In this document: positions 12,650 through 43,236 of the stretch, one piece after another
How the letters are laid out: every line of letters starts with the position of its first letter
How positions within the stretch are numbered: position 1 is the first letter of the stretch
Source of the DNA: Chloroherpetonaceae bacterium
GTDB lineage: Bacteria; Bacteroidota; Chlorobiia; Chlorobiales; Chloroherpetonaceae
Reading direction: 5' to 3'
NCBI GenBank assembly: GCA_028277445.1
Contig: JANQGG010000006.1
Coordinates: forward strand, 1-64,000
DNA length: 64,000 nt
Program-made: the position numbers and the translations under genes
The notes under the pieces: generated by a model
The model's input: the letters and a program-made list of their open reading frames with translations, nothing else
What the model was told of the DNA's origin: nothing
Database searches by the model: none

Positions 12650-13492
12650 TTAACCTGCCTTTTTCATTTCTTCTTCTATCAATGTAGAAGCTTTGCGCTC
12701 AATGATGCAATTGACTTCTACCGGGCATACTTCTACGCATTTGGCGCATCCATTGCAAGCCTCCTGATTAATTACCGCAAGATTGTTATCCATGGTAATG
12801 GCATCAAGATCACAGGCTTTCAAACACTTCTGGCAGGCAATGCAAGCTGCCGAACAATATTTTTTAGCCACTGCGCCTTTATCGTGGGAGTTACAGGCAA
12901 TAAAAATCTGTTTATCTTTCTTGGGGATTAAAGCTAAAACTTTGGTTGGGCAGGCAGGAATGCAAGCGCCGCATCCCGTACATAATTCATCATCAATTTT
13001 AATAATGCCATCTTCAAGGCTCATGGCGCCAAAATCGCAATAGGCAATGCACGAACCCAAACCCACACAGGAATACGGACATTGTTTCGGACCCACAAAG
13101 GTTTGCGTGGCCGCCCAACAATCCTGAATACCAACATATTCAGCCGTTGGTTTCACCACATTATGCGTTCCCTGGCAAAGCACCACACATGTGACCGGTT
13201 CAACTTCAGCCATCTGCAGACCTAGTTTAGAGCCCAATGCCGAAACCAAATCGGAGCCTCCCGGTGGACAGGTTAAATTTGTGTTTTTGGTTTTCACCAA
13301 TTCTTCAGCAAAGGCCATACAACCCGGCAAACCGCATGCACCGCAATTGACCCCCGGCAGCATGTCGTTAATAATTTCCACCATCGGGTCTTCTTCAACA
13401 TGAAATTTCTTGGATATGTATAAAATGATCACACTCAACGCAAACGCCACCGAGCCAAGACTAATAACGGGCAATATCATTGAACTAGCCAT
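12650..13492 (-). CDS. rnfB: Rnf complex subunit B, iron-sulfur protein
   Basis: RnfB accepts electrons from ferredoxin at the cytoplasmic face of the Rnf complex and passes them towards the membrane subunits. The 280 residues begin with a membrane helix ([21 protein letters not shown]), then the [4Fe-4S] motif [12 protein letters not shown] of the RnfB N-terminal domain. Several ferredoxin-type clusters follow, including [23 protein letters not shown] and [12 protein letters not shown]. The start MASSMILP (ATG 13490-13492) is preferred over the longer frame because the latter overlaps rseC deeply; with this start the overlap is 8 bases. It is the last gene of the operon. Confidence 0.93.
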
Positions 13493-13898
13493 ACGTTTTC
13501 TCCTCCACCAAATAAAAATATGTTTTGTGTTTTGTAAATCGTTTAATGACGACATAAGTCATCGCTATCGCAGCCAGGCTTATCCAGGCTGATTCCCAAA
13601 TCGGGAGTTCCAAGCCATTGCTTGTAATTCCCAAAGCAACTATGAAAACAACAAGGGGGAAAACCAGAAGAATAAGGGTTGATTTTAACTCGGCATAATC
13701 TTGCAATTCCAGATGAACCACCTCGCCGACTTTTGCCCCGATGGTATTTTTAGCCATTAACGTGTCGGTTACTTTCGATGTAGGCTGCTGCATCATCTGG
13801 CAGGCGCCGCAATGCGAGCCTTTATTGGCCGGTTCTTCATCGCAGAACAAAAGCAGTTCGGCCTGATCGCCAACAATATTAATCACTTTACCTTTCAC
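13485..13898 (-). CDS. RseC/MucC family membrane protein
   Basis: A 137-residue protein of the RseC/MucC family. It has an N-terminal domain with a cysteine pair (GSHCGACQM), then two adjacent membrane helices (about 73-92 and 98-118). In Proteobacteria RseC acts on sigma-E or on SoxR reduction together with Rnf-like proteins; in Bacteroidota and Chlorobiota a homologue commonly lies in rnf operons. It sits between apbE and rnfB, overlapping rnfB by 8 bases, so a role in redox maintenance or assembly of Rnf is more likely here than sigma-E control. That last step is inference. Confidence 0.87.
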
Positions 13899-13947
13899 TG
13901 TTGCAATACCCTAATTTCTCTAACCTTGGCTTATCGTGCAATACATT

Positions 13948-14964
13948 TTAAAATTCCTCTATGAACTGATCAAGATTCGGACTCTTCTTTAATTCATAAC
14001 TATTATCAATCATAATAAACGCAATTGTTTTTACTTCATCAACAATCGCCAACGCTTTTTCATAGCCCAGAATAAAAAATGCCGTTGCATAGGCATCGGC
14101 CAGCGCAGGGTTCTCGGAAAACACAGTTACGCTCCGATAACCTTCCGAAGGATAACCGGTTTTTGGATTGATAATATGATGATACTTTCTTCCTTGGTAA
14201 ACAAAGTAGTTTTCATAATCCCCACTGGTTGCAATACCCTGACTTTTCAAAATCCCAAACGTTGAAAACAGTCTCTCTTCGGCTTTGGGATTCTTAATGC
14301 CCGAAGTCCAGGGCAAGCTCCCTTTTTGGCCTGAAACATACAAATCACCGCCGGCATAAACGATATAATTCGTTATACCGTTTAACGCTAATATTTTCCC
14401 GGCTGCTTCCGCTGCATATCCTTTGGCTATTCCACCCAAACCGATGGACATGCCCTGTTTTTTAAGGAATAATTTCAACTCGGTTTCTTCAAGCTCAATC
14501 CGGTTATAGTTAACCAGCGCTTTTGCGGAGTCTATCGCATCCTGGGATGGCGGCTCAGTACGATTTTTCACATCCCAAAGCTTGCCCAAAGGCTTAAAGC
14601 TAATATCAAACGCGCCATCGGTTTGTTTGGAAATTGATAACGCTTTAGCTACCAATTCGGATATCTCCGGCGTGATTAAAACCGGTTTTTGGCCGGCATG
14701 ATAAGCCGCCATAGAAATCGGGCTGGTTTTAATCCACTCGCTCATATCCTGCTCAAGCCGATCAATTTCGTTAAAGGCTTTTTCAATAGCGCTATCTAAC
14801 CGACCGGTTGTGTATTGATTTTCATTAACGGCAACTTTTATCTTAAAAAGCGTACCCATTTGAAGCCGCTCTTTTTCATAAACCCGGATGTTAGGATTGT
14901 CATGCGTTTGGCAGCCCCACAAAAGCAAAATCAGAACCGCAAAGAACTTCAGCTTTCGAATCAT
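13948..14964 (-). CDS. apbE: FAD:protein FMN transferase
   Basis: ApbE attaches FMN from FAD to Thr/Ser of target proteins; its targets in this operon are RnfG and RnfD. The 338-residue protein is a lipoprotein (LILLLWGC lipobox) and so acts on the periplasmic side. Family motifs are QMGTLFKIKV, EQDMSEW, FDISFKPLGKLWDV, GLGGIAKGYAAE (FAD-binding) and YVVYAGGDLY-like IVYAGGDLYVSG, followed by ATSGDYENYF and HHIINPKTGYPS (metal site region). The start is placed at ATG 14962-14964 because the longer frame runs back through rnfA. The gap to rnfA is 19 bases. Confidence 0.93.
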   Translation of the reverse strand: MIRKLKFFAVLILLLWGCQTHDNPNIRVYEKERLQMGTLFKIKVAVNENQYTTGRLDSAIEKAFNEIDRLEQDMSEWIKTSPISMAAYHAGQKPVLITPEISELVAKALSISKQTDGAFDISFKPLGKLWDVKNRTEPPSQDAIDSAKALVNYNRIELEETELKLFLKKQGMSIGLGGIAKGYAAEAAGKILALNGITNYIVYAGGDLYVSGQKGSLPWTSGIKNPKAEERLFSTFGILKSQGIATSGDYENYFVYQGRKYHHIINPKTGYPSEGYRSVTVFSENPALADAYATAFFILGYEKALAIVDEVKTIAFIMIDNSYELKKSPNLDQFIEEF

Positions 14965-14983
14965 CCCGAAACGATTTGAGTTT

Positions 14984-15559
14984 TTATTTAACCAATCCTG
15001 AAAAACCCATAAACGCCATTGAAAGAATTGCCGCAACGACAAAACTGATCGGTACATTCTTAAATGGCGTGGGAACATCGGCTGTTTCCAGCTTTTCACG
15101 AATACCGGCAAAAAGCACAATGGCCAGTATAAAGCCCATAGCTGAAAAGAAGGAAAAGAGTACCGATTCAAAGAAGTTATAGTCGCCTTGGTTAGCCAGA
15201 ATAGCCACACCAAGAATGGCACAGTTAGTGGTAATAAGCGGCAAGAAAATGCCTAGCGATGCATACAATACTTTACTGACTTTTTTCAAGACAATTTCAA
15301 CCACCTGAACCAGCGAAGCAATCACCAGAATAAACATGACGGTTTGCATAAACTCAATCTTGTATGGGACTAAAATACCTTTGTAAAGCAGGTAAGCAAT
15401 GGCCGATCCCAGAGTCATAACAAAGGTTACGGCAAACCCCATGCCGATGGCCGTATCCAACTTCTTCGATACGCCAATGTAAGGGCAAATGCCTAAAAAC
15501 CGTGCAAACACCACATTATTTACAAATACCGCGCTAACAACAATCAACAAAATTTCCAT
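14984..15559 (-). CDS. rnfA: Rnf complex membrane subunit A
   Basis: RnfA is a six-helix inner-membrane subunit that forms, with RnfE, the inverted-repeat core through which electrons and ions pass. The 191 residues match the family length and motifs: [20 protein letters not shown] in the first helix and [13 protein letters not shown]-type [16 protein letters not shown], whose cysteines bind the intramembrane [2Fe-2S] cluster. Its ATG overlaps the rnfE stop by one base (TAATG), which indicates translational coupling. Confidence 0.95.
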
Positions 15560-16164
15560 TATGCGTTACTTTTTTGTTTTTTCTCTAATGCATTCAATCC
15601 GGCAATAATAAAACCCAGTCCGGCAAATGCTCCCGGAGGCAAGGCCATCACTAAAATGGTTTTCGGATCTTCGCCCACTAGCGGAATATTAAAAATGGTT
15701 CCGGCGCCCAGTACCTCGCGCATGGCCGAAAGCAGCAGTAGAGCAAAGGTAAATCCAAAGCCCATGCCAAATGCATCGATAATGGAGTAACCAATACCGT
15801 TTTTACTGGCATATGCTTCGGCGCGCCCTAAAATCATACAATTCACAACAATCAAAGGAATAAACAATCCAAGCGACTGGTTAAGCTCCGGCGAGAACGC
15901 TTTGATCAGCAGATCTACGATGGTTACAAATGTAGCAATAACTACAATGTAGGCTGGAATGCGAACGGTTTTAGGCAGCAATTTCGCAGAAGCCGATATC
16001 ACCGTATTGGAACCGAGCAAAACAAACGTGGTGGCAAGCCCCATACCTAAGCCATTTTCAGCCGTTGTAGTAACAGCTAAAACCGGGCAAAGCCCCAATA
16101 ACATTTTTAAAACCGGGTTTTCGCTAACAAACCCTCGGGTAAATACCTGTAATGCGTCTTTCAT
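15559..16164 (-). CDS. rnfE: Rnf complex membrane subunit E
   Basis: RnfE is the pseudo-twofold partner of RnfA in the membrane core. The 201 residues contain [27 protein letters not shown] in the first helices and [20 protein letters not shown] in the central region, where cysteines ligate the shared [2Fe-2S] cluster. There are six predicted helices. It overlaps rnfG by four bases (ATGA) and rnfA by one, so the genes are tightly coupled. Confidence 0.95.
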
Positions 16165-16712
16165 TTGTCACTCAATTTTGGATATTCCTCCGATACCAAT
16201 TTCAAACCTTGATATACGGCTTCGGTAACCGCTCTGGAGGATATTGTTGCTGCTGTAAGTTCATCAACAAAGCCGTCTTTGTCGTCCTTTTTTACTTTCC
16301 AGACTACCCCTTCCAAGCCTTTACCTTTAAATTGTGCTTTGAATTTATCTTTATCGATTTTGTCGCCTAATCCCGGCGTTTCGGCATGCGCCAGTACTTT
16401 ATAATTATAAACTTCACAAGCCGTTGATACGCCTACCAGGACTTCAATATTACCACTATAGCCTTTATCAGTAGAGGTTTCCACCGCAATGCCTTTGATG
16501 TTTAATTCAGCATCGTAGGCTTCGTAAAACACGGCTTTTTCGGTCTTATTGGTCCTCAAACTATCGAAGGTAAACGGGAAGATTTTTTGAATGGCTTCGC
16601 GCTTCATTTTGGCTTTTGCTTCTGCAATCGGTTCTTTGGTGACGTCATACACATAAGACAAAAGCAATGCACTGATCACGCCAACTAAGGTAAGAACTAC
16701 AATAGGTTTCAT
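16161..16712 (-). CDS. rnfG: Rnf complex flavoprotein subunit G
   Basis: RnfG carries covalently bound FMN on the periplasmic side and has one N-terminal membrane helix ([18 protein letters not shown]). The FMN attachment motif is visible as [12 protein letters not shown] (residues about 154-165), where the second Thr is the acceptor. An Ala in place of the Gly of the S/T-G-A-T consensus is, as I recall, common in this group. [14 protein letters not shown], a conserved FMN-contact segment, is near 108-121. It is 183 residues, the normal length. It overlaps rnfE by four bases and rnfD by one. Confidence 0.94.
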
Positions 16713-17686
16713 TAGTTTTTAGCCTCCTGATCCTTTTTAACCTTACGCTCTGCACTCAAATCCCAATTATCCAATAACGGTACGAAGGCATTCATGATTA
16801 AAATGGCAAACGAAACCCCTTCCGGGTAACCGCCCCAAAGACGAATAATGGCCGTTAAGAGTCCACACCCCAAACCAAATATTAGCTGACCCCGAAATGC
16901 CAAAGGGCTGGTAACCATGTCGGTTGCCATAAAAAACGCCCCTAAGATCAATCCGCCTGTGATCAAATGAAATACCGGCGATGCGTAGGTTGTTGGATCT
17001 ATGAGGTAGAAGATACCGGTGAATGCAAATGTTGAAAGAATAAACGAAAGCGGAATCGTTAAAGTAATGTAGCGTTTAAACAGCAGCCAAACCGCGCCCA
17101 GAAGCAATGCAATAACCGAGGTTTCGCCCAAACTGCCGGTAATTTCGCCATAAGTTGCACGCCACGTATCGATTTGGGCAATGGCTTCCAAACCATCGGT
17201 TTTTAAGAGGCCTAAAGGAGAGGCTGCGGTTTGCATATCTACCGAAAACGGGATGGGCCAGTTTGTCATTTCTACCGGAAACGAAATGAGCAAAAACACC
17301 CTGGCCACCAAAGCCGGGTTGAAAATATTAAACCCGATTCCGCCAAACAATTGCTTGGATATAACAATGGCTACAAACGATCCGATTATAACCATCCAAA
17401 TTGGCAGACTCGAAGGCACGTTGAGCCCTAATAATAACCCGGTAACAAACGCGCTACCATCCAAACATTGGGTTTGTTTTTTTCGAATCAGATCCGATAC
17501 CCATTCAAAAAAAATACAACTGGCGATAGCGACGACATGAACAACTAAAGCTCTCCAACCAAAAAAATAGACGGATAGTAATGTTGCCGGCGCAAGCGCT
17601 ATTGCAACATTGTACATCACTTTTTCTATGGTATCGGTTGAACGAACAAACGGTGCGTAAGAAACTTTTAATGATAATGATTGCAT
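16712..17686 (-). CDS. rnfD: Rnf complex membrane subunit D
   Basis: RnfD is a polytopic subunit with a covalent FMN, homologous to NqrB. The 324 residues have 8-10 hydrophobic segments and family motifs: [20 protein letters not shown] near 25, [21 protein letters not shown] near 78-98, [19 protein letters not shown] near 115-133, and [11 protein letters not shown] near 255. The flavinylation site is expected near [10 protein letters not shown] (about 151-160), which reads T-A-A-S instead of the usual S/T-G-A-T; a Ser would be the acceptor. It lies 18 bases after rnfC and overlaps rnfG by one base. Confidence 0.94.
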
Positions 17687-17704
17687 AAATTGTGTAACCG
17701 ATTG

Positions 17705-19033
17705 TTAAGCTGATTTTCGGTTTTTTCTAGTGTTAATAATGACTTTTGCATATTTAATCCAATGCACGATTTCACGTTTAGAAGGGCATACATAAGTGCA
17801 GCTTCCACATTCGGTACAGTTAAATAATCCAAATTCATTGAGTTCGTCAAAGTCCTTTTGTTGGGCTAGGTTTGCAAACAACCAAGGCTGCAACTCTTGC
17901 GGACATGCATCAACACACTTGCCGCATCGAATGCATGTACGTTCCTGAGATGTTTCGAGCTGCTGGTTGTTTATAAATAATAAACCGGAGGATGTTTTGG
18001 TGACCGGCGTATCAAACGTGTATTGGGCTTTCCCCATCATTGGCCCGCCGGTAATCACCTGATTGACTTTTCCGGAGATTGTTTCATCCCAATAATCCAT
18101 GATATCACAAAACTTGGTACCGACAACCGCTTTCAGGTTTTTTCGCTTATCTATTTCAATACCGGAAATGGTAAGAATTCGCTCAATTAACGGTTTGTTC
18201 TTACATACCGCTTCATAGATTGCAAAAGCCGTTGCCACATTATGTACAATGCAGCCTTTGTCGAAAGGCAGCTCGCCTTCCACGAGTTCGCGCCCTGTTA
18301 TGGCGTTAATGAGCTGTTTTTCAGCGCCCTGCGGGTACTTGGTTTCAAGGCCGATGATTTTAATATCGGTGCCTTCAACAGTTTTTTTCAGCTTATCTAT
18401 GGCATCTTTTTTATTCTCTTCAATACCAATGCACGCTTGAACCTTATTATCAAAAACAGAACATATGATTTTTAAACCTTCAACAATGCCTTCAGGCTCT
18501 TCAAGCATTAAACGATGGTCTGATGTCAAAAACGGTTCACATTCAGCCCCGTTTAAGATGATGGTATCAACGGTTTTATCTTTGGGCGGCGAGAGCTTGA
18601 CATTCGTCGGGAAACCAGCTCCACCCATTCCAACAATTCCGGCTTTCTTGATGCGTTCAACGATGGTTTCTTTAGATAAGCTTTTCCAATCCGGTTCTTC
18701 AACATTTAATCCTTCCAGCCATTCATCCTGACCATCGGATTCCATAAAAACCGTTGGTGCGTATTGGCCGCTGGGATGCGGATGGGATTTAATCGATTTA
18801 ATTTTGCCACTGGTGGGTGCGTGGACATGCGCGGAAATAAAACCATCAGCCTCACCGATAATTTCACCCTTTTTAACTTTTTGAGCGGCTTTAACAATAG
18901 GCTTAGCCGGTTTGCCGAGGTGTTGAGCCAATGGAACCGCCAGATCCTTGGGGATAGGCATCACCTCGATAGCCTTTTCTTCGGTTAATTTATTTTCAGG
19001 TGGATGTATTCCTCCAAACTTGAATGTCTTCAT
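17705..19033 (-). CDS. rnfC: Rnf complex NADH-binding subunit C
   Basis: RnfC is the peripheral subunit that exchanges electrons with NAD(H). The 442 residues show [12 protein letters not shown] at the start and an [15 protein letters not shown]-like biotinyl-lipoyl fold region. The glycine-rich flavin/NADH loop reads [16 protein letters not shown] (about 131-146), followed by [17 protein letters not shown]. Two C-terminal [4Fe-4S] motifs are [12 protein letters not shown] and [13 protein letters not shown]. It is the first gene of the operon; its promoter should lie in the 626-base gap upstream. Confidence 0.95.
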
Positions 19034-19659: not shown

Positions 19660-19965
19660 ATGGAAATTCACTTAACCCATTACCTGGCCTTAAGCGCTTT
19701 CATGTTTACTTCCGGTGTGGTCGGTGTCTTGATCCGCAAGAACGCTATCGTGGTTTTTATGTGTATTGAACTGATGCTTAATGCCGTAAATCTAAGTTTT
19801 GTGGCCTTTTCGCATTACTTGCAAAATATAGAAGGTCAAATGATGGTTTTTTTCGTGATGACGGTTGCCGCTGCCGAGGCGGCAGTTGGTCTGGCTATTG
19901 TCATTTCACTTTTTAGAAATAAACAAACCATTAACCTTAATCAGATAAACCTCTTAAAAGGTTAA
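19660..19965 (+). CDS. nuoK: NADH-quinone oxidoreductase subunit K
   Basis: NuoK is a small membrane subunit of respiratory complex I that takes part in proton transfer. It has 101 residues with three helices: [17 protein letters not shown], then [22 protein letters not shown] with the conserved membrane glutamate, then [24 protein letters not shown] with the second conserved glutamate. It is the first gene of the cluster; nuoJ and the upstream complex I genes are not next to it. Confidence 0.95.
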
Positions 19966-20005: not shown

Positions 20006-21940
20006 ATGCATAATTTTTCCTATCTACTCACACTATTGCCCCTGCTGGGTTTTGCTGTAACCGGATTGATTTATCTCATCAGAAAAGACAACGCGTTGAG
20101 CAATTCAATGGAGAAAATCATCGGCGGTTTTTCTTCATTAATGATCTTTCTTCCCTTCGTTTTAACCCTTGTTTTGATCAACGGATTATCCGAAGCGCCT
20201 GCTTCTCCACAACTCTTAAAACTCTATACCTGGATTGCTGCCGGAAGTTTGGATTTATCCATAACCTATCGTTTGGATTCCCTATCGCTTCTGATGAGTT
20301 TGGTGGTTACCGGCGTCGGGTTTTTAATCCATCTCTACTCGTTGGGGTATATGCACAAAGACCCTGGGTTTGTCCGGTTTTTCAGTTACCTGAATCTCTT
20401 CATCTTTTCGATGATGAATTTGATATTGGCCGAAAATATGGTACTGATGTTTTTGGGCTGGGAAGGCGTGGGTTTATGTTCGTATCTGCTGATCGGATTT
20501 TGGCATGAAAAATCTTTCGACGGGGTTAAAATTTCCTCGACCGGTGAAGCGGCCAACAAAGCCTTTATTGTCAATCGCATTGGTGATTTTGCCATGCTTG
20601 TGGCCATGTTTTGGATTTTCAAACAAATTGACTCGCTATCGTTTTCTTCAATTTTACAAAACACCCAATCGTTTGACCCGCAGGCTATTTTTTGGATTAC
20701 CTTGCTGATCTTTATCGGGAGCACGGGGAAATCCGCCCAAATTCCATTGTTTGTCTGGTTGCCCGATGCCATGGCCGGCCCAACGCCTGTTTCCGCGCTG
20801 ATCCATGCCGCCACAATGGTAACAAGCGGTATTTACCTGATTGCACGGTTAAGCCCGCTATTTTTAATCGCCCCCGATACCATGATGATCATCGCTTATG
20901 TTGGCGTTTTAACGGCATTTTTTGCCGCCACCATTGGGCTTGTGCAAAACGACATCAAAAAAGTTTTGGCCTACTCCACGGTTTCCCAGCTTGGATACAT
21001 GTTCCTGGCTTTGGGCATCGGTGCGTTTTCAACGGCGATTTTTCATGTGGTTACGCATGCTTTCTTCAAAGCGTGTTTGTTTCTTGGCAGCGGCTCGGTG
21101 ATCCATGCCATGCATGAAGAACAGGATATTCGAAAGATGGGCGGCCTTTTTAAAGTGATGCCCTCTACGGCCATCACCTTTCTTTTGAGTTCTCTGGCGT
21201 TGGCCGGCTTCCCGCTTTTTTCCGGATTCTTTAGCAAAGACGCCATACTTTCATTCACATTTGGCGCCCATCAACCGGTATTGTATGCCTTAGGACTTTT
21301 GACTGCGCTTTTAACCGCATTCTACAGCATGCGCTTGTTTTCCCTGACATTTTTGGGTCAGCCTCGTTGGTCTGAAGGTAAACACCCTCATGAATCGCCG
21401 GCCATAATGACGCTTCCATTGTGGATTTTAGCTATCCTTTCATTCCTCGGTGGGTTGATAGGCCTTCCGGCAACCATTCAGGAGCATAACATTATTGATA
21501 CTTGGCTCAGCGCTTCGGTTTCGTTACCGGATTTTCACCTTTCGCACAGTGTTGAATGGGTACTGATCGGAATTTCGAGCGTGGTTGCTATTTCGGGCGT
21601 TTCGGCAGGATTATGGATTTATACCAAACAACCGGCGTTAATAACAACGTTGCACAAGCAGTTTTTATTACTTTACAAAATCTTAATAAATAAGTATTTT
21701 GTCGATGAGCTTTATCACCAACTTATCACAACACCCGTTCGCCAGTTTTCAAAACATGTCTGTTTGTGGGTAGATACCACGATCATTGATGGTATAATTC
21801 ATACCATCGGAAAAGCCACGATCGTTATTGGCTCTCAGCTCAGGGAACTTCAACAAGGATTGATTCAGAATTATGCATTTGTTATGACAATGGGCATTCT
21901 TGCTATTCTATCGTTCCTTTTAATTAAGATTATTGTTTAA
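20006..21940 (+). CDS. nuoL: NADH-quinone oxidoreductase subunit L
   Basis: The distal antiporter-like proton-pumping subunit of complex I. It has 644 residues with about 16 helices. Family signatures are FLGWEGVGLCSYLLIGFW (conserved glutamate), NKAFIVNRIGDFAM, PLFVWLPDAMAGPTPVSALIHAATMVTSG (the ALIHAATMV signature of NuoL) and the KKVLAYSTVSQLGYM loop with the conserved lysine. The C-terminal long lateral helix region reaches the end. It is 40 bases after nuoK. The next gene is a histidine kinase instead of nuoM. Confidence 0.96.
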   Translation: MHNFSYLLTLLPLLGFAVTGLIYLIRKDNALSNSMEKIIGGFSSLMIFLPFVLTLVLINGLSEAPASPQLLKLYTWIAAGSLDLSITYRLDSLSLLMSLVVTGVGFLIHLYSLGYMHKDPGFVRFFSYLNLFIFSMMNLILAENMVLMFLGWEGVGLCSYLLIGFWHEKSFDGVKISSTGEAANKAFIVNRIGDFAMLVAMFWIFKQIDSLSFSSILQNTQSFDPQAIFWITLLIFIGSTGKSAQIPLFVWLPDAMAGPTPVSALIHAATMVTSGIYLIARLSPLFLIAPDTMMIIAYVGVLTAFFAATIGLVQNDIKKVLAYSTVSQLGYMFLALGIGAFSTAIFHVVTHAFFKACLFLGSGSVIHAMHEEQDIRKMGGLFKVMPSTAITFLLSSLALAGFPLFSGFFSKDAILSFTFGAHQPVLYALGLLTALLTAFYSMRLFSLTFLGQPRWSEGKHPHESPAIMTLPLWILAILSFLGGLIGLPATIQEHNIIDTWLSASVSLPDFHLSHSVEWVLIGISSVVAISGVSAGLWIYTKQPALITTLHKQFLLLYKILINKYFVDELYHQLITTPVRQFSKHVCLWVDTTIIDGIIHTIGKATIVIGSQLRELQQGLIQNYAFVMTMGILAILSFLLIKIIV

Positions 21941-21951
21941 GCTAAAAAAAC

Positions 21952-24900
21952 ATGGCTAAAGGTTCATCAAAATCAAAACGGTCCATCAGAAAAAACAAAT
22001 CGGATATAAGCCAGCAAATGTTGCAAGACCTGGCTCAAAGAGATGCGTTTGATTTGTCCAATCAATTTCCGTTAAAATCCACGGAGTTGATCTCGTTTTT
22101 TTCAACGATAGAAAATTTATCGGCAGTAGATACTAAACTTTCTTACTCTTGCCGTTACATATCTGAGGTAACCGAAAGCCAATCCGCATTTCTGGTGCTT
22201 TTCGATGGGAATTTGAACATCACGCGGAGCTATTACAATGTAACGGATACCGAAACGCAAAACCTTTTGCCTGCTTTTTTTGATGAACACTTTTCGGATA
22301 CATCTGCATTAAACTCAGATTTTTTTAATGCAATATTTCAACCTGACTTTCAAACCTCGTTCAGCTTTTTGGTTTCACCTGATCAGTTGCAATCCATTGC
22401 TCCTTTTTCGTTTCTTGATAGTCGTGCCGAATACAAGCGTATCACAGATGAAAACGCCGAGACCTTTCCTTTAGGCCATGTTTTATTTACGCCGCTTTAC
22501 GATCCCGATCGGTTAATCCTGGGTTTTGTAGCTATCGACTTTAAACAAAAGCCGGAAAATAGTGTAAAACTGGCGGCTCTAACCGAGTTTTTAACGGAAG
22601 CCATTGAAAAACATATTTTTTCCGATCTGTACAATCTTGAAACCCGGCAAGGGATTGTAGACTCAGATTTCTCCTCGCTAACTCAGGTTACCGAGCGAAT
22701 TATCGAGGACAACTCGCCGGAGTTGATTGCAAAAAACCTCAGTAAGGAAATCACAAAATTAGGCAATCTTAAATCATGCACGGTCGCATTTTTTGATCAC
22801 AACGATCAAATCCATGCGTTTTCACATCATCAACGTAAAGGGTCTAAAGGGCAAGATCCTTGTCGACCGTTTTCGTACTCCCATGATGGCCGGATAGAAA
22901 AATCAATTTGTGAAGCGATTTTCATGACAAAGGGCTTCGAGTATGAAACCGGATTTTGTTTTTCCGCCGAGCAACTTTCGCTTTTGGTTTATGCCTTGCA
23001 GTCCGGGATGTCGCCACCCAAAGAATTTTCTGAAAACGATTTGGCGCGTCCCAATTTGAATGAATACCAGAACAATGAAAATATTGGGCTATTTGTCCCA
23101 TTACATTATAATAAAGAACTGTTGGGTTATATCAGTTTAGGTTCTCCAAATCAAATTTATTCTTTAGCCCAGCTAAATCCGATTATCAAAAAAATTGGCT
23201 TTATTGCCGATAAAGTCTCGGATTATTTGTGGCTTCTGAAACTTCAAACCGATAAGGAAAACGAAAAACGCAAGGTTGTATCGTATCAGGAAATACTTTC
23301 AACCCTGGTTGCCACCAGCTCAAAAATCCACTCCGACGCACCGCTTAATGAAAAACTTAATCATGTGGTTAATTCCGTTGTTGAGTTTTTTGGCTTGTCG
23401 TATGCGGCCATATGTACGTTTGATGACGAGTTGACTTTAACTCACGCCGCTCATGCTTTCCACACTCAATCGGAATTTTTAGCGCTTAAATCGGTCATTG
23501 AACGCCGATTCAGAGTTGGCGGATCGTTTTCGCGGCGTCTTTTGTCCAGCATTCTTTCGTCGCCATTTATTGCTGAGCCATGCTACATTTTTAAATTATC
23601 TCAGGTTAAACGTGTTCTAAACGGAGAGTCTTTGGATTTCGAATTTCAACAACTACGGGCATTTACCGGCGAAACTTCAAAAGCTACAACACTTAGCCTT
23701 CAAAATCTCAACGATTATTTAACAGGCGATGAAAATGTTGCCGTGATTATTCCGTTTTATGGCGAACAAAACAAACTTATTGGTTTAATCAGTTTAGGCG
23801 GCGTGCTGCTTTCAGGCGGGGTATATGAACTCTCGGAAATCATGGATCGGTTCTACATCATTACCCATTTCGCCGAACAAATCTCACGCGACTATCAGCT
23901 TTCGTTAGTCGAGTTTCAACGCAATGAAGAAATCCTTGAAAATCAACGGCTCAATCAAACCGTTTCTTCACTCTTTGAAATCGGTTCAAAAATTGCTGAA
24001 ACCGATAATTTGGAAACCAAACTTGAACTGCTTTGTAAAGCCATTTCATCCACGGGTATAGACACCGCAATTGCATGCCTATGCGATCAAAACGGGATTG
24101 TTAACTACACCAAACAATATTTCCACAGCCATATCGATTCGGATTTTATCAACCAATTAAAATCGCAATATGCCGTAGGTAAAACCATTAATATTGAAGC
24201 GTACAATACTTTATTTAATACCTCGGCATTTAAGCTTTCACCGATAAACATTTACTGCGCAGATCTTCGCCAGTTAAACCTTGAACTCAAAAATCACAAG
24301 CTTTCCGTATTCGGGTCGGAAACTCAATCGTATGTCAATCTTGAAAACACGGAACACACTGAGCCTTCCGGTTATAAAAATCTTCAACATTATCTGGATT
24401 ATAAAAATAAACCCGAGCAGGATGCTTACTTAATTGCAACGCCTATAACTTCCGATTTCTCCAATGAAAACAGCTTAAAAGGGCTTTTATTGCTTGGCAA
24501 CTTCATGGAAAATATGGATTACGATACCGTGCTTAAGCGATTTGTTGTGATTGATCTTTTTGTGAGAACAATTTCTGCCGATCTCTCAAATGTAATTTTA
24601 ACAACAAATTTACAGTCCGAATCTCGGAAGCTCCGAAAGAAAAACCAATTTATTGAATCGTTATTGGCTTTAAATGTAAAACTTTCCAAACCCATATCGC
24701 GCTTTGAAAAGATCAAATCGGTTTGCGAGCAAAGCGTTAAAAACTCGGATTTCTCCTACGTGAGCGCCATTTTGATTGATCCCGATTCATACGAAATCAC
24801 GAACTATTTACAAGCTGAAAATCCCCGTCAGGGCAATGGGAATATTGAACTGATTGCAAAATTACCTGAAAACCTCAATGTCCTCAACAAAGCCTATCTA

Positions 24901-26427
24901 GAGCTAGCATTGGATTCAAAACATAAAATCAGTCAGTCGTATTGTTTCAACAATGCCGATATCATGAACAAATTGCCAAACGATGCCGATCAAAATTCGC
25001 TAATCTTCAGTGGATGTCGGTTAGTTCCGCTTAACGAATTTGAGCCATCCGAGCAGTTATTTCTTGAATCCGACTTATTATTTGAAACGTATTGCCTGGC
25101 ACAACACAAGTCTCAAAACAATTGCACGCTCTTAATTCCAATTCAAAATCAGAAAAATGAAACGTTTGGATTCATAACACTAGGCGCATTAATTGAGGAT
25201 GTTTCAAAATCCAAAGATGAGGTTTTGGATGAGATTCGCTTAATTGAGCTATTGGTCAACAGCCTTGCCGGCAGTCTTGAAAATATGATCTTAACGGAAA
25301 CGCTTGCCCGTTGGGATGCCAAGTTTCGCAATGCTGCCGAAAATGTTGAATACGGCATGCTCATAACCGACAAGGCCGGGTCTATTGAATATGCCAACCA
25401 ATTTATCAAAAAAGTGCTTGGGTATTCGGATAGTGAAATTTTAGAGAAAACTTTTTTAGACCTTGTTGATGAAAAATCCTTAGCGGTTGCAAAAACTTGT
25501 TATGAAAATGCTTTGGATCAAGCCATTGAAATCACTGAAGATTCCAATGCTAAACAGGAATATGAAATTGATTTAGTAGCAAACGATGGCGCTAATATTC
25601 CATTTCAGGTCATTACCAACGGCCAGTATTTTGTTAATTCCAGAGGGGATCTGGCATTGGAAGGTACATTTAGTATTTTGGTTGATCTTAGAAAAGTCAG
25701 GGAAATTGAAAAGAAAAAACGAGAGATTGAAACGATCCGCAATAACTTTCTGGCAATGATCGTTCATGATATGAAAGTCCCGCTTTCAGCCATTTACGGG
25801 TATAGCGATATGCTTAAATCGGTTAATCCAACAACTATGGATCCGAGTTATTTTAAGGATATTATATCAAGAGTGCATCAATCTGCCAGTAACATTAATC
25901 TTTTGGTTCAGGAAATACTAGATTTTTCAAAGTATGAATCAAACTTGGTTGTGCTTAACAAGCAATCCCACAATCTCATTCTTTGCATTGATTTGGTGCT
26001 CGATCAAAATCAATTGGCGCTTCAAAAAAAGGGCATGAAAATCACTCGTAATATTGATCATCATGACTTTACATTCTTATTTGATTTTGATAAAATGGCC
26101 AGAGCCATTGGAAATATTTTCAGTAATGCCATTAAATTTTCATCAGCGGAATCCATTATTGAAATTCGGCTTCAACATCAAATCCACAACAATAAACCGT
26201 TTGCTTTGGTGAGCATTAAAGATTTTGGCGAAGGTATTCCGGAAACTGAAATAGATTTAATTTTTGATGCCTATCAACAAGCCCAGTCTAAGCATGGCTC
26301 ACGGGGAACCGGCTTGGGTTTGTCTATCACCAAACAAATCATTGAATTGCATAATGGGGAAATTTGGGCCGAAAGCGAGCTTAATAAAGGCACGATTATT
26401 CATTTTTATATCCCAATGACCAATTAA
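21952..26427 (+). CDS. Large multi-GAF/PAS sensor histidine kinase within the nuo cluster
   Basis: A 1491-residue soluble hybrid-sized kinase without membrane helices. The first 1100 residues look like several GAF-type sensor domains in tandem (repeated pattern of VFVPLHYNKELLGYISLGSPN-like strands, about four repeats), followed by a PAS domain (about 1120-1240: AENVEYGMLITDKAGSIEYAN). The HisKA helix has its phosphorylatable histidine in IVHDMKVPLSAIYGY (His1272). The HATPase has N-box SNAIKFSS, G1 DFGEGIPE and G2 RGTGLGLSI. It starts 11 bases after the nuoL stop and ends 22 bases before nuoM, so it is in the same transcript. No response regulator is adjacent. The signal is unknown; a redox or energy signal is a guess from context. 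Confidence 0.9.
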   Translation: MAKGSSKSKRSIRKNKSDISQQMLQDLAQRDAFDLSNQFPLKSTELISFFSTIENLSAVDTKLSYSCRYISEVTESQSAFLVLFDGNLNITRSYYNVTDTETQNLLPAFFDEHFSDTSALNSDFFNAIFQPDFQTSFSFLVSPDQLQSIAPFSFLDSRAEYKRITDENAETFPLGHVLFTPLYDPDRLILGFVAIDFKQKPENSVKLAALTEFLTEAIEKHIFSDLYNLETRQGIVDSDFSSLTQVTERIIEDNSPELIAKNLSKEITKLGNLKSCTVAFFDHNDQIHAFSHHQRKGSKGQDPCRPFSYSHDGRIEKSICEAIFMTKGFEYETGFCFSAEQLSLLVYALQSGMSPPKEFSENDLARPNLNEYQNNENIGLFVPLHYNKELLGYISLGSPNQIYSLAQLNPIIKKIGFIADKVSDYLWLLKLQTDKENEKRKVVSYQEILSTLVATSSKIHSDAPLNEKLNHVVNSVVEFFGLSYAAICTFDDELTLTHAAHAFHTQSEFLALKSVIERRFRVGGSFSRRLLSSILSSPFIAEPCYIFKLSQVKRVLNGESLDFEFQQLRAFTGETSKATTLSLQNLNDYLTGDENVAVIIPFYGEQNKLIGLISLGGVLLSGGVYELSEIMDRFYIITHFAEQISRDYQLSLVEFQRNEEILENQRLNQTVSSLFEIGSKIAETDNLETKLELLCKAISSTGIDTAIACLCDQNGIVNYTKQYFHSHIDSDFINQLKSQYAVGKTINIEAYNTLFNTSAFKLSPINIYCADLRQLNLELKNHKLSVFGSETQSYVNLENTEHTEPSGYKNLQHYLDYKNKPEQDAYLIATPITSDFSNENSLKGLLLLGNFMENMDYDTVLKRFVVIDLFVRTISADLSNVILTTNLQSESRKLRKKNQFIESLLALNVKLSKPISRFEKIKSVCEQSVKNSDFSYVSAILIDPDSYEITNYLQAENPRQGNGNIELIAKLPENLNVLNKAYLELALDSKHKISQSYCFNNADIMNKLPNDADQNSLIFSGCRLVPLNEFEPSEQLFLESDLLFETYCLAQHKSQNNCTLLIPIQNQKNETFGFITLGALIEDVSKSKDEVLDEIRLIELLVNSLAGSLENMILTETLARWDAKFRNAAENVEYGMLITDKAGSIEYANQFIKKVLGYSDSEILEKTFLDLVDEKSLAVAKTCYENALDQAIEITEDSNAKQEYEIDLVANDGANIPFQVITNGQYFVNSRGDLALEGTFSILVDLRKVREIEKKKREIETIRNNFLAMIVHDMKVPLSAIYGYSDMLKSVNPTTMDPSYFKDIISRVHQSASNINLLVQEILDFSKYESNLVVLNKQSHNLILCIDLVLDQNQLALQKKGMKITRNIDHHDFTFLFDFDKMARAIGNIFSNAIKFSSAESIIEIRLQHQIHNNKPFALVSIKDFGEGIPETEIDLIFDAYQQAQSKHGSRGTGLGLSITKQIIELHNGEIWAESELNKGTIIHFYIPMTN

Positions 26428-26449: not shown

Positions 26450-27982
26450 GTGATATTAACCCTAACAATTTTTTTACCTCTGATTTTCGGGATTTTGGTT
26501 TTTGGGGTAAAAAAAGAACGCGTGGAATTGCAAAAATGGATTGCACTCACCGGTTCAGCGCTTACCTTTGGCTTATCGCTTTTTTTATTTACGCAGTATT
26601 CGTCTCAAGCTTCTTTTCAATTTGAACATCTGGCCTTGCACAATTGGCTTGGTCAAACTTTCGATACAGCTTATCGTGTGGCCCTTGATGGTTTTTCCAT
26701 GCCATTATTCCTTTTAACCGGATTTTTATTTCCCTTAACCATCATTGGATCGTGGAACGATATCAACCACAACAATCGTGAGTACCTCTTTTTAATGCTC
26801 ATGCTGGAAACCGGAGTTTTAGGCGTATTTGCCGCCACCGACCTTTTTCTGTTTTATCTTTTTTGGGAGGCCATGCTTATCCCGATGTATTTTATTATCG
26901 GGCTGTGGGGCGGAAAATCGCGGATATATGCCGCTACCAAGTACTTTATCTACACGCTTTCGGGTTCGTTGTTGATGTTAATCGGTATTATTTACATCGG
27001 GTATTTGGGCGCTGGTGAAAACGCCGGTGTTTTTACAACCGACTATCAAAAGCTTCTTGAGTTGAACTTGCCATTAGATCAACAATTGTGGCTATTCTGG
27101 ATATTCGGGATCAGCTTTTTTATTAAAGTGCCTTTGTTTCCGGTGCATACCTGGCTACCGGATGCACATACCGAAGCGCCAACCGCAGGTTCGGTTATCC
27201 TTGCCGGCGTGCTTTTAAAAATGGGCACTTATGCCTTGATTCGTTTTAATCTGACCTTATTCCCATTAGCCTCGCATGAATTTTCCATGTTAATTGCCAT
27301 ACTATCGATCATCGGCATTATCTATGGCGCGCTTTTGGCTTTGGTTCAAACCGATATCAAGCGACTGGTGGCATATTCTTCGGTCAGCCATCTGGGTTTT
27401 GTGGTTTTAGGATTGTTTGCATTTACCACCGAAGCATTGCAAGGCGCTATTCTGCAAATGGTTAATCATGGGTTATCAACTGGTTTATTGTTTATGCTTA
27501 TCGGAATGATCTACTCACGGCGACACACACGGTTTATTTCGGAATTTGGCGGCATCAAAAAAACCATGCCGGTTTTTACATCCATATTTTTGATTACAAC
27601 GCTTGCCTCGGTTGGCTTACCGGGATTGAACGGATTTGTCGGGGAGTTTCTAATTTTAAGCGGTAGCTTTAAATCGCTTAATTACGGCTCGTATGCTTAT
27701 GCAATTTTGGCTTCACTTGGTGTTGTGCTTTCGGTGGTTTATATGCTTCCAATGATTCAAAAAGTGTTTCATGGAAAAATTACCAACGATGCAAACCGAA
27801 CGCTTAAGGATTTAAATCCCCGCGAACTTATGGTATCTGTGGCTTTTGTGTTTTTTATGGTATGGATTGGCGTAGCGCCAGGCGGTTTTTTAAACATTTC
27901 AGAACATGCCTCAGAACAATTATTGGAGCGCTTATCAAAAAGCCATATGCAAAGCTCGATGGCAACATTTAACCCGAACTGA
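26450..27982 (+). CDS. nuoM: NADH-quinone oxidoreductase subunit M
   Basis: The second antiporter-like subunit of complex I, 510 residues and about 14 helices. Signatures are LFYLFWEAMLIPMYFIIGLWGG (conserved glutamate), KVPLFPVHTWLPDAHTEAPTAGSVILAG (the NuoM signature with AHTEAP) and DIKRLVAYSSVSHLGFV. It starts with GTG at 26450, 22 bases after the histidine kinase gene, and is followed by nuoN after six bases. Confidence 0.96.
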   Translation: MILTLTIFLPLIFGILVFGVKKERVELQKWIALTGSALTFGLSLFLFTQYSSQASFQFEHLALHNWLGQTFDTAYRVALDGFSMPLFLLTGFLFPLTIIGSWNDINHNNREYLFLMLMLETGVLGVFAATDLFLFYLFWEAMLIPMYFIIGLWGGKSRIYAATKYFIYTLSGSLLMLIGIIYIGYLGAGENAGVFTTDYQKLLELNLPLDQQLWLFWIFGISFFIKVPLFPVHTWLPDAHTEAPTAGSVILAGVLLKMGTYALIRFNLTLFPLASHEFSMLIAILSIIGIIYGALLALVQTDIKRLVAYSSVSHLGFVVLGLFAFTTEALQGAILQMVNHGLSTGLLFMLIGMIYSRRHTRFISEFGGIKKTMPVFTSIFLITTLASVGLPGLNGFVGEFLILSGSFKSLNYGSYAYAILASLGVVLSVVYMLPMIQKVFHGKITNDANRTLKDLNPRELMVSVAFVFFMVWIGVAPGGFLNISEHASEQLLERLSKSHMQSSMATFNPN

Positions 27983-27988: not shown

Positions 27989-29413
27989 ATGCTTCAAGAC
28001 TTTTATTATGCACTCCCGATAATGCTGGCTTCGTTATGGAGCGTGGGTTTGATTTTGATTGAAGCGCTTGCCGAAAAAGCCTCGCTCACTAAAATTGCGG
28101 CTCAATTGGGTTTTATTCTGGTTTTGGTATTCTGTTTCGTAGTTCCCAATGAATCGCACGCCGTTTTTTATGGCATGCTAAAAACCGGGTTGTTTACCAA
28201 CTACACTGCCGGCGTTTTTTCATTAACCGGCTTATTGGTTGTGAGCATTTCCAGCGAGTATTTAAATGATGAAGACATTCATTACGGTGAATTTTATCCG
28301 ATTGTTTTTCTTTCGGTAGTCGGTATGATGTTGATGGCCTCATCCGGCAACCTAACCATACTTTTTATCGGGCTGGAATTAATGTCTATAGCTTTATATG
28401 TGCTGGCCGGATTGAACCGAAAACTGGATCGCTCCAATGAAGCGGCCATAAAATATTTTTTGTTAGGGGCGTTTGCTTCAGGATTTTTCTTGTATGGCAT
28501 TGCGTTTATCTATGGCGATGCCGGCTCATTATCACTCATTAAAATCTCTTCATTTTATGAAAGCCATGAACCCAGCGGCATGTTCTGGATAGGGCTGATT
28601 TTGGTTTTGATCGGTCTGTTGTTCAAAATTGCAGCCGTTCCTTTTCATCAATGGGCGCCGGATGCTTACGAAGGAGCGCCTACCGCTTCAACGGCATTCA
28701 TGTCTACATCAGCAAAAATAGCTTCCTTCAGCGCGCTTATCATCATCATTTTAACATTTGCATCAATTCTCGCCAAAACCGAAAGTTTTACAAATGTGCT
28801 GGCCATTGTTGCTGTTTTAAGCATGATTCTGGGAAATCTTTATGCACTGGGGCAAGATAATATCAAACGCATGCTGGCTTATTCATCCATTGCACATGGC
28901 GGCTACATGCTGGTGGGAATTGTTGCGGCAAACGCTTCGGGATTAAGCGGGGTACTGTTTTACACGTTGATCTATAGCATAACAACCATCGGTGCGTTTG
29001 GCTTGATTTTAAGCCTTGAGCGAAAACAGAGCTTCCTGGATATTAACGATTACAGAGGATTGTTTAAAACTCATCCTTTGCCGGCTACCTTAATCGCCGT
29101 CTTTATGTTTAGCTTGATTGGCTTGCCGCCGCTTGGGGGATTTATCGGAAAGTACCTGGTGTTTTCAGCCGCCATTGAAGCCGATTTAACTTGGCTAGTC
29201 GTTGTTGGCGTTCTGGCAAGTTTGCTTTCGGTGTTTTATTACCTCCGGGTTGTTTTGGTTATGTTTTTGGAACACCCAAATGATAATGTACAGGTTACAG
29301 AAATTGCTTCATTAAACACCGTGCTTTTAATTTTAGCCCTTCTCACGCTTGTTCTAGGATTTTACCCTTCTCCTCTTATTAATATCGCTCAAAAGGCTAT
29401 TGCTATGTTTTAA
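27989..29413 (+). CDS. nuoN: NADH-quinone oxidoreductase subunit N
   Basis: The third antiporter-like subunit of complex I, 474 residues and about 14 helices. Signatures are LFIGLELMSIALYVLAGL with the conserved glutamate, SNEAAIKYFLLGAFASGF, PFHQWAPDAYEGAPTASTAFMSTSAK (the NuoN signature) and DNIKRMLAYSSIAHGGYMLVG. It is the last gene of the cluster; a RAYT remnant follows directly after its stop. Confidence 0.96.
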   Translation: MLQDFYYALPIMLASLWSVGLILIEALAEKASLTKIAAQLGFILVLVFCFVVPNESHAVFYGMLKTGLFTNYTAGVFSLTGLLVVSISSEYLNDEDIHYGEFYPIVFLSVVGMMLMASSGNLTILFIGLELMSIALYVLAGLNRKLDRSNEAAIKYFLLGAFASGFFLYGIAFIYGDAGSLSLIKISSFYESHEPSGMFWIGLILVLIGLLFKIAAVPFHQWAPDAYEGAPTASTAFMSTSAKIASFSALIIIILTFASILAKTESFTNVLAIVAVLSMILGNLYALGQDNIKRMLAYSSIAHGGYMLVGIVAANASGLSGVLFYTLIYSITTIGAFGLILSLERKQSFLDINDYRGLFKTHPLPATLIAVFMFSLIGLPPLGGFIGKYLVFSAAIEADLTWLVVVGVLASLLSVFYYLRVVLVMFLEHPNDNVQVTEIASLNTVLLILALLTLVLGFYPSPLINIAQKAIAMF

Positions 29414-38224: not shown

Positions 38225-40129
38225 CTACAACAATTGCGGGGTTTCAGAAACACGGAATCGTTTGATGGCGCTTTGGAGTTGCTCGGCTTGTGTGATTAAA
38301 TCCTGCGTAAGTTGTGAAATTTCCTGCGAGGCTTCTTTATTCCTTAGCGCTGTATCGGATAGCGAGGATATGGATTTATTGACGCGGTCGCTGATCTCTT
38401 TTTGGGCTTCGGCCTGTTCAACAACCTGACTCGTTCTAATATTCATATCCGACGTTTTCATCGTAATCTGCTGACTGCTTCGCATTTGCGTATCAATTAA
38501 ATTAGAAAGCCGGCTCATGATCAAGCTGGAGCGGGAATAGAAAGAGGTGATTTGCTCCAGTGTTTTTTCTGCGGATTTGTAATTGTTTTTACTGTCTCTT
38601 GAACTCTGCCCGGTTTCAACCACAGCATCCTGGACTTTTGCCGTCAGTTGCCTAACATTAAACAGCATTTCTTTGATTTGTTGAGAATCTGTCGTTGCAG
38701 CCTCAGCTAACGCTCGAATTTCATTAGCTACTACTTTAAAACCTTTACCGGCTTCACCGGCAATAGCCGACTCAATGGATGCATTCACTGCCAACAGATT
38801 GGTTTGTTTGGCCGTTCTTGCAATTTTTTCCACGATACTGGTAATATCTCGGGTCACTTTATCATAATTATGAATTTGCATCAGTAAGCCTTCCAACTTA
38901 TCTGAGATGCTAACCATACTTAAATTAACCTGTTCAATTGAATATCGCCCTTCCTGAACTTCATGAATAACCTGGCTAAAGACCTGGTTAGCCTCCTGAA
39001 TATTTCTGGCCGCTTCCTGAATAGTTCCGCTTAAATCTTCAATGGATGTTCTGGTTTCGCGAACATTAATTGTTAGGCCTTGCATGTCCTCTACAATTTG
39101 ATTTGCGGTGTGATTCATCTTATCCATGATCTGAATAATCTCTTGAACAGTCAGGGATTGATTTTCAGCATTTTTCATAACCCGGGTTGCCGTATCGCTA
39201 ATTTCTAAAGAAACCTGGTTTAATCGAAGGGTTAAATCCATAATATCACGAACCGATTCCTTTACCGAATCAACCATAATATTTACGGAATCAACCAAAT
39301 CGCCAATTTCATCATCGGGATCATAAGTAATCTTTTGGGTTAAGTCGCCTTGCGAAACATTTTTGGCAGAACTAACAATCTTTTTGATCGGTTCGCCGAT
39401 AAGTCTTTTCATCGCCAATACAACAGCCACTATAACAAGCGCAACAATTATAAGACCTAATAACAATGGCGCAAAAAAAGCTGTCCAGATTTGATCTTCA
39501 ACATAATCCGAATCTATACTAATGGAAATTGCTCCCATTAAATCCCCTTTTGAATAACCAAAACCTGCTTTTTGAGCGAATATCGGATACAAGTAAGTGT
39601 AAGAGTCGCCATTTTCCGATTCAATTTTTTCCCAAAAAGCATATTCACTGGATTGAATGGTTTTAAATTCGGTTTTTCGTTCAAGCCTCATTTCCGAAAA
39701 GAGTTTTTCAAAATCGCGCAATGCAGCTTCTTCCTGAAGTGAAGGTTTGTTTGAGGGATTCCAATAATTTAATGATGTGAATTTCAGTTTGATAGGATAG
39801 CCGCCAATTTTAAAGCGTTGAGATTTTTCATTCGTTTGATTGGCTGAATCTTGCTGAACATTTAGGCTATAAGCATCAATTAGATTAATTAATTCTGAAC
39901 CTTGCTGATCTTGTGCTTTATAGGAGTCTTGAGCATATTTCGAATTTTTATGCGCGATCATCTCAAGAAGCTCAGCAACAGTTTGAGCTTGTTGTTTAAA
40001 ATAGTTTTTGTTTTGTGTGGATTGATTGAAAAAATAAATCGAGGAGATCAAAATAAGTACCAGCGAAAGAACAATCCCGACTATTACAATAATTTTAGTC
40101 TCTAACTTACTTGTAACTTGATTTACCAT
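38225..40129 (-). CDS. Methyl-accepting chemotaxis protein
   Basis: A 634-residue transmembrane chemoreceptor. TM1 is at about 12-32, a periplasmic sensor follows to about 215, TM2 ([21 protein letters not shown]) is at about 220-241, then HAMP ([26 protein letters not shown]), then a long helical signalling domain. The hairpin tip reads [39 protein letters not shown], close to the CheA/CheW-binding consensus with small differences. It transmits a periplasmic signal to CheA via CheW. It starts after a strong terminator of the upstream cluster (40153-40182), so it has its own promoter between. cheA itself is not in the window. Confidence 0.93.
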
Positions 40130-40152
40130 TCGTGATTTGGTTTTTTAACCAT

Positions 40153-40182
40153 AAAAAAACCGTCAGTGCAAAACACTGACGG
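40153..40182 (-). terminator. Terminator between the 625-aa protein gene and the MCP gene
   Basis: Perfect 9-base arms ccgtcagtg (40160-40168) and cactgacgg (40174-40182), loop caaaa, and a U run in the minus direction (40153-40159). It lies 20 bases after the stop of the 625-residue protein gene and ends the PATAN-CheY-CheW transcript before the MCP gene. Confidence 0.92.
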
Positions 40183-40201
40183 CATAATTAAAACAATTCA
40201 T

Positions 40202-42079: not shown

Positions 42080-42142
42080 GTATGTATAGTTTATATTTTT
42101 ATAATAATTACACCTGGTTGAATTTTTATAACCCAAGACGAA

Positions 42143-42805
42143 TCATTGAAACTGGGTTAATTCTTTCAAATTCAGAAGCTTTTTTGTATCAATCAACACG
42201 ACTTCATTTTCGCCCAACTCTTCACCTGAGCGCACAAAAAGTCCTTCGGCACAAGACACAATTCTACCCAACTCGCTATCTTCACTGCTAACTTTTATGA
42301 TTTCATGTTCTGCAACCCGAAGCACGTCTAAAACCGAATCGACAACAAAACCAACGGAAAACACCGCGGTTTTAAGAATAGTAATTTTTTCAGCTGCTTT
42401 CTGTTTGCGTGAAACAGTTGTAGATTTTTTTTTAAATCCTAAAATGGCATGTAAATCAACGACCGATGTAATTTCACCTCGTACATTACAAATCCCCATG
42501 ATATACGAGGGCAATCCCGGCACCGGGATAATATTTTGCATGTCAATGACGCCTTCAACATCTTTAACTCGAAATGCAACTTCGCGATCTCCTAAAAGAA
42601 CCGCCATATACTGCTCGCGTTGCTCATCTTCCGGTTCAACCTTATCTAACGGCCGTCCTTCAACAATCTCAAGCTTTTGCTTTACCTGGCTTGGTATTTT
42701 CTTTAAATCTTCAACTTTAATCTCGCCGGGCGATTTCCAAACGAACGGATTCTGAACCAACGAATCCTTTGGAAGCTTCTGCGATTCTTTTTGCAAATCG
42801 GCCAT
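42143..42805 (-). CDS. CheW-like coupling protein
   Basis: A 220-residue protein with a CheW domain at about 65-215. QYMAVLLGDREVAFRVKDVEGVIDMQNIIPVPGLPSYIMGICNVRGEI is a textbook CheW core with the VRG motif, followed by VVDLHAILGF and IDTKKLLNL. It would link chemoreceptors to CheA. The N-terminal 60 residues are charged and unusual in length compared with the roughly 150-residue classical CheW. It lies 19 bases after the CheY-like gene and before the 625-aa protein gene. Confidence 0.92.
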   Translation of the reverse strand: MADLQKESQKLPKDSLVQNPFVWKSPGEIKVEDLKKIPSQVKQKLEIVEGRPLDKVEPEDEQREQYMAVLLGDREVAFRVKDVEGVIDMQNIIPVPGLPSYIMGICNVRGEITSVVDLHAILGFKKKSTTVSRKQKAAEKITILKTAVFSVGFVVDSVLDVLRVAEHEIIKVSSEDSELGRIVSCAEGLFVRSGEELGENEVVLIDTKKLLNLKELTQFQ

Positions 42806-42824
42806 CTTATATCCAAAATAGATG

Positions 42825-43193: not shown

Positions 43194-43236
43194 GGACTAA
43201 ATAGTTTTGGTTTGTTTTTAAAAACTAACAATAAAC

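Follow-up and report, generated by a model that had tools for sequence, protein, structure and literature searches.

In a classical two-component pair, the cognate response regulator is encoded next to the sensor kinase. Among the solved HisKA-type (HPK1) kinases, HK853 of Thermotoga maritima and WalK/YycG reside in the membrane, and their partners are known. RegB/PrrB and ArcB, for which respiratory state is the input and gene expression the output, also reside in the membrane; their regulators are known and their quinone/cysteine sensing is defined. Phytochrome-type kinases instead place GAF-like domains on long helices upstream of the kinase and have a PHY domain and a chromophore. A fixed genetic link between a sensor kinase and subunits of respiratory complex I is not known to us from any other system, and our literature search turned up no report of a kinase within nuo operons. 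Here we describe a gene for a multi-GAF/PAS sensor histidine kinase that directly follows the complex I gene nuoL in a genome of a Chloroherpetonaceae bacterium (assembly GCA_028277445.1; G000 below). The DNA analysed, hereafter the window, comprises positions 1 to 64,000 of contig JANQGG010000006.1, that is, 64,000 nucleotides (nt).

The catalytic core of the window kinase is that of HK853 and WalK/YycG, with the same HisKA-HATPase arrangement and intact catalytic boxes. HK853 entries were the top sequence match among solved kinases (E 7e-34), and the HK853 and YycG cores were among the fold matches, with template modelling (TM) scores, relative to the target, of at most about 0.8. Unlike HK853 and WalK, however, the window kinase is soluble, carries five GAF-like repeats, lacks a linked regulator and is bound genetically to nuoK-nuoL. 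Phytochrome sensory modules were the top fold matches of its N-terminal region (identity ~10%, whole-model TM 0.14-0.20), which is the result that a chain of GAF-type domains should give. The Pfam matches of 12 homologues included no PHY model, however, and there was no sign of a chromophore. The comparison with RegB/PrrB and ArcB concerns the proposed role alone, and we claim no sequence relation to them.

The kinase gene occupies window positions 21952-26427 (+) as a single open reading frame (ORF) of 1491 codons, with no internal stop in the translation, and begins 11 nt after the end of nuoL (21940) and ends 22 nt before the GTG start of nuoM (26450). The local order in this genome is nuoK, nuoL, kinase, nuoM, nuoN, with Pfam support for each Nuo assignment:

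19660-19965, + strand: nuoK (Pfam Oxidored_q2, E 9e-31), preceding nuoL-kinase in relatives; first gene of the conserved unit.
20006-21940, + strand: nuoL, assigned to the second (NuoEFG-type) complex I (Pfam Proton_antipo_N and Proton_antipo_M, the latter at E 1e-83).
21952-26427, + strand: multi-GAF/PAS sensor histidine kinase, 1491 residues (ORF, Pfam), homologues of which directly follow nuoL in 11 further genomes.
26450-27982, + strand: nuoM (Pfam), 22 nt 3' of the kinase, an adjacency not kept in most relatives.
27989-29413, + strand: nuoN (Pfam Proton_antipo_M, E 1e-76), with 53% identity to the gene that follows nuoM in genome G001.

A kinase of this length between nuoL and nuoM, with these two gaps, is what the preliminary description of the window had read from the DNA, and the ORF and the Pfam matches agree with it.

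Relatives of the kinase were sought in 61 Chlorobiales genomes, of which 12 belong to families f1-f3 and 49 to family f4 (Chlorobiaceae-like); f1 is the family of the present genome, with two members sampled. We take f4 to be the Chlorobiaceae and G001 to be, probably, Chloroherpeton thalassium. Strong relatives of the kinase were present in 12 of the 61 genomes, namely both members of f1 plus those of f2 and f3, and named records among them include Candidatus Thermochlorobacter and other Chlorobiales metagenome-assembled genomes. The family was not found in the 49 f4 genomes, where the matches were ordinary kinases and covered the core only. The conserved same-strand adjacency by which membership of a nuo operon is judged was found throughout f1-f3, since the kinase lies directly after nuoL on the same strand in 12/12 genomes from three families. 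When all neighbourhood proteins were clustered, nuoK, nuoL and the kinase were the only genes common to all twelve neighbourhoods (nuoK lies past the contig end in G017, and in G002 it was missed by the ORF call and recovered with tblastn); other genes were common to one genus or two genomes at most. In ten genomes, this one included, nuoL and the kinase are at most 92 nt apart or overlap as called frames; the exceptions are G003, in which the start is unclear, and G013, in which the genes are broken. In G013 (L035 4223-10955) the kinase is split over two frames and nuoL is short, through either sequencing error or decay.

The kinase and nuoL trees have an identical ingroup branching order. 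NuoL is 56-64% identical to its relatives over its length, and the kinase evolves faster, with 48% identity to G001 versus 64% for nuoL. A window-specific accident or an assembly artefact is ruled out by the occurrence of the same order in 11 other genomes, one of them a single contig. A lasting genetic tie between the kinase and a complex I subunit is thus supported by the adjacency in 12/12 genomes together with the concordant trees. Absence of the arrangement from every relative, which had been named beforehand as the result that would overturn it, was not obtained.

Beyond the order, the family proved to be narrowly distributed. A 297-genome sample of the phylum gave the kinase at E <= 1e-45 in 10 genomes, all of f1-f3, and when 84,980 species genomes were scanned with a pattern, strong relatives came from Chlorobiales only. 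We also surveyed the 30 best nuoL loci from a 148-genome phylum sample, six of which belong to f1-f3. Behind nuoL in the 24 best loci outside f1-f3 we found nuoM in 19, unrelated genes in 5 and a kinase in none; the kinase search of the 1.5-kb flanks was not fully sensitive (two true cases were missed), but the 5 loci without nuoM were read directly. In another family of the phylum (L093, L094, L096, L099 and L103), unrelated small genes of lipoprotein-like or SRAP-like type take the place of nuoM behind nuoL, which likewise ends its gene run.

The position of nuoM, in contrast, is not conserved. It lies 3' of the kinase on the same strand only in G000 and in G003 (family f3), where it starts ~340 nt past the kinase. 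An opposite-strand FemAB-type gene separates kinase and nuoM in G001 (L031 11717-12949), and in family f2 nuoM-nuoN occupy a locus separate from nuoL-kinase. The placement 'between nuoL and nuoM' given earlier therefore holds for this genome, but as a conserved feature it is ruled out by the intervening gene of G001 and the split in f2, and the durable unit is nuoK-nuoL-kinase. At the separate nuoM-nuoN locus of one f2 genome (G007:C15:7978-12709), the pair adjoins a heme-copper oxidase subunit I gene; a search of G001 for that oxidase family gave no match. On the other side of the unit, the present genome carries RnfC-like (17705-19033) and RnfD-like (16712-17686) genes in a group divergent from nuoK (window 12650-19033, -), and an Rnf/Nqr-type complex is thus encoded directly beside nuoK-nuoL-kinase.

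We then considered which complex I the unit serves. The genome has two nuoD genes. Contig C60 carries one cluster, which extends from nuoA-like genes through nuoLMN and leaves no space for nuoEFG (annotated by order and partial matches), whereas the cluster on contig C24 holds nuoA, B, C, D, E, F, G and H of an NADH-type complex. The nuo run of the window is limited to nuoK-L-[kinase]-M-N, with nuoABCD, EFG and H on another contig. A C-terminal domain of NuoF was matched in 10 of the 12 f1-f3 genomes versus one weak match in 29 f4 genomes, and kinase and NuoF are largely co-present and co-absent. Because the f1-f3 carriers of the kinase are the genomes with this NuoF domain, we assign the kinase-linked nuoK-nuoL, on gene content, to the second, NuoEFG-containing complex I (14 subunits, NADH-oxidising), an enzyme missing from the Chlorobiaceae-like genomes. 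In excerpts of a study of Ignavibacterium-related bacteria, a 14-subunit complex I set scattered over the genome is described together with an 11-gene operon without nuoEFG (PMC6338057), which is the same pair of sets as here; those passages make no mention of a kinase in the nuo genes. In our phylum samples the kinase family occurred solely in Chlorobiales f1-f3. The preliminary description had envisaged stoichiometric production of the kinase with complex I, which is unlikely for the whole enzyme because most of the other subunits are encoded at separate loci.

The protein itself consists of an N-terminal sensor half and a C-terminal catalytic part:

22069-22635, + strand: GAF-like block 1, residues 40-228 (hhalign E 4e-13 to 5e-16 when compared with blocks 2-5; AlphaFold model).
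22657-23271, + strand: GAF-like block 2, residues 236-440, FC motif at 335-336 (profile comparison and AlphaFold model).
23281-23931, + strand: GAF-like block 3, residues 444-660 (profile comparison and AlphaFold model).
23941-24609, + strand: GAF-like block 4, residues 664-886, YC motif at 768-769 (profile comparison and AlphaFold model).
24619-25287, + strand: GAF-like block 5, residues 890-1112, YC motif at 997-998 (profile comparison and AlphaFold model).
25318-25614, + strand: PAS domain, residues 1123-1221 (Pfam PAS_8/PAS_9/PAS).
25738-25941, + strand: HisKA, residues 1263-1330 (Pfam E 1e-11), H-box VHDMKVPL with His1272.
26089-26421, + strand: HATPase_c, residues 1380-1490 (Pfam E 8e-25), N, G1 and G2 boxes intact.

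His1272 is invariant in 12/12 homologues, the HATPase_c boxes are invariant in 9/9 aligned homologues, and PAS_9 was matched by Pfam in 12/12. The C-terminal part, with PAS, HisKA and HATPase_c domains and intact catalytic motifs, is an ordinary histidine kinase that is apparently active; the PAS, HisKA and HATPase domains recognized earlier are borne out by the Pfam matches. The earlier wording 'soluble' also agrees with the sequence, which has no membrane segment (maximum 19-residue hydropathy 1.67 versus 2.56 for NuoL).

The sensor half was less evident to Pfam, which detected two GAF domains in the window kinase, both weakly (GAF_2 E 2e-4, at 22.0 bits versus the 28.6 required by the curated cut-off); GAF_2 and GAF_3 each reached E <= 0.01 in 5/12 homologues. 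We divided residues 40-1112 into five blocks, derived a profile for each from the homologues and compared these profiles with one another. All ten pairs of blocks matched each other (hhalign, E 3e-10 to 2e-23), whereas each block compared with the PAS block as a control gave no match (E > 0.02). An AlphaFold model of residues 1-1130 contained five alpha/beta domains linked by long helices, with a mean predicted local distance difference test (pLDDT) score of 78 and a predicted TM score (pTM) of 0.42; in such a model the individual domains are credible, but their mutual arrangement, given the low pTM, is not. Mutual homology of the five blocks, the AlphaFold model and the phytochrome-type fold matches of the chained region together identify GAF-like repeats, five in number rather than the four counted before. 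The region is fast-evolving and poorly conserved, the number of blocks varies between homologues, and block 1 is missing from relatives of genus g3. An aromatic-Cys motif recurs at a similar place in several blocks, as FC in block 2 and YC in blocks 4 and 5, and Cys769 is present in every homologue that possesses block 4.

No receiver domain was found near the kinase in relatives, within ~7 kb on each side where the contigs allow, and no regulator gene was found beside the other nuo loci in L042 or the short nuoM loci. In the window the nearest receiver domains, at 42825-43193 and 43237-44337, lie ~16 kb off in a chemosensory-type cluster, so the statement that no response regulator is near stands. 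The kinase has no adjacent cognate regulator of the kind that defines a classical two-component pair, and since no relative's locus contains a receiver domain, the partner must be unlinked. The cluster comprises:

38225-44337, - strand: chemosensory-type cluster as a whole.
38225-40129, - strand: methyl-accepting chemotaxis protein.
40202-42136, - strand: unknown 644-residue protein.
42143-42805, - strand: CheW.
42825-43193, - strand: CheY-like receiver.
43237-44337, - strand: DUF4388-receiver protein.

Although the 644-residue protein is confined to kinase-bearing families among the relatives searched, we do not favour this cluster as the partner, its linkage to the kinase being loose: the distance is ~6-60 kb in five genomes, and in the others the two lie on separate contigs.

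Two of about ten orphan regulators of this genome were tested for the distribution of their orthologues. A BTAD-type regulator at G000:C28 was rejected, as several kinase-bearing genomes lack an orthologue. The second is the following:

G000:C21:12319-13002 (L134 4317-5003): orphan OmpR-type response regulator, between atpD-atpC and cytochrome c maturation (ccm) genes.

Orthologues of the OmpR-type regulator, 58-79% identical, occur in exactly the 12 kinase genomes, and f4 gave only generic matches of at most 36%. Among the orthologues the phosphoacceptor Asp53 and Lys105 are invariant. The gene adjoins atpD-atpC in seven genomes and lies near ccmE or ccmF in several (the atpDC/ccm neighbours were identified directly in one or two genomes, and BLAST families carried these assignments over to the others), and in G005 it lies 3 kb from nuoN-nuoM. 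A conserved protein of ~245-310 residues without a Pfam or NCBIfam match separates it from ccmE. On this co-occurrence evidence, we regard the OmpR-type regulator as a tentative candidate for the kinase partner.

Adjacency to nuoL in every genome examined suggests a dedicated respiration sensor in Chlorobiales outside the Chlorobiaceae. We favour, with reservations, a cytoplasmic orphan kinase that forms a lineage-specific, operon-like unit with the genes of two complex I membrane subunits (nuoK-nuoL-kinase) and signals respiratory state through an unlinked regulator. The kinase would be transcribed together with nuoK-nuoL, and its GAF/PAS array would read at least one signal inside the cell that is related to respiration or redox state. 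After autophosphorylation on His1272, the kinase would hand the phosphate on to a response regulator encoded elsewhere, which would tune the expression of respiratory genes; the best available candidate for this regulator is the OmpR-type one beside atpDC and the cytochrome c maturation genes. Several observations weigh against this proposal. The signal sensed may differ between genera, given the varying GAF region, and in G000 an Asn replaces the second acidic residue of the OmpR-type regulator. Co-occurrence within one order is confounded by descent, as a single loss in the Chlorobiaceae would explain the whole pattern; the gene at window 40202-42136, at the least, shares this genome distribution, the ccm neighbours may themselves be lineage-specific and yield the same pattern, and the comparison covered two orphan regulators. 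Co-transcription with nuoK-nuoL, moreover, is something that we infer from the 11-nt spacing, and upstream of nuoK, where several starts are uncertain, shared DNA motifs were no more frequent than in shuffles. A promoter-like sequence, TAGATA-16-TATAAT with an extended TG, also lies within the end of nuoL (21771-21798), and the kinase might use it as a promoter of its own and stand outside the nuo message, an arrangement compatible with either of the functional alternatives taken up below. We consider this unlikely: 21 promoter-like sites were found versus 28 expected by chance, the consensus is that of other bacteria, and a shared strand with a gap of only 11 nt is in line with an operon. Terminator-like sites were slightly above the shuffled mean, none of them decisive.

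A serious rival, which we hold possible rather than probable, is that the kinase landed once behind an ancestral nuoL and uses the operon for steady expression, with a signal and targets that are not specific to complex I. One insertion followed by vertical descent accounts for the whole distribution, and both the composition of the kinase gene, slightly off its neighbours (G+C 38.8% versus 39.9-44.0%; third positions 39% versus 45-50%), and its faster evolution relative to nuoL are in keeping with a passenger. Neutral linkage, however, should break as often as that of nuoL and nuoM, yet the surroundings have been reshuffled and nuoM-nuoN split off in f2 while nuoL-kinase was kept in every genome. 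The passenger explanation is weakened because the pair outlived the rearrangements that parted nuoL from nuoM. Conserved gene adjacency often marks interacting proteins, and of nuoL and nuoM it is nuoL that has kept the kinase at its side, so direct binding of the kinase to NuoL or complex I, with the enzyme as its sensor input or target, was also considered; we judge it improbable, as the kinase is soluble and without a membrane segment, its poorly conserved GAF region does not suggest a fixed interface, and NuoK and NuoL have no obvious extra domain in Pfam. The most elaborate version of the signalling proposal, in which a five-GAF kinase made with NuoK/NuoL reads the NADH-driven chain, possibly via the aromatic-Cys motif or contact with NuoL, and drives the OmpR-type orphan to switch between phototrophic and respiratory metabolism, is speculative, and we give it little credence as a whole.

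The component parts of this system are of known kinds; what is new is that a sensor kinase stands in fixed association with genes of complex I. Should the link be functional, it would provide a direct handle on the control of NADH-type complex I in a lineage close to the green sulfur bacteria. It also yields a testable pair of orphan kinase and orphan regulator, present in the probable Chloroherpeton thalassium, a cultured species.

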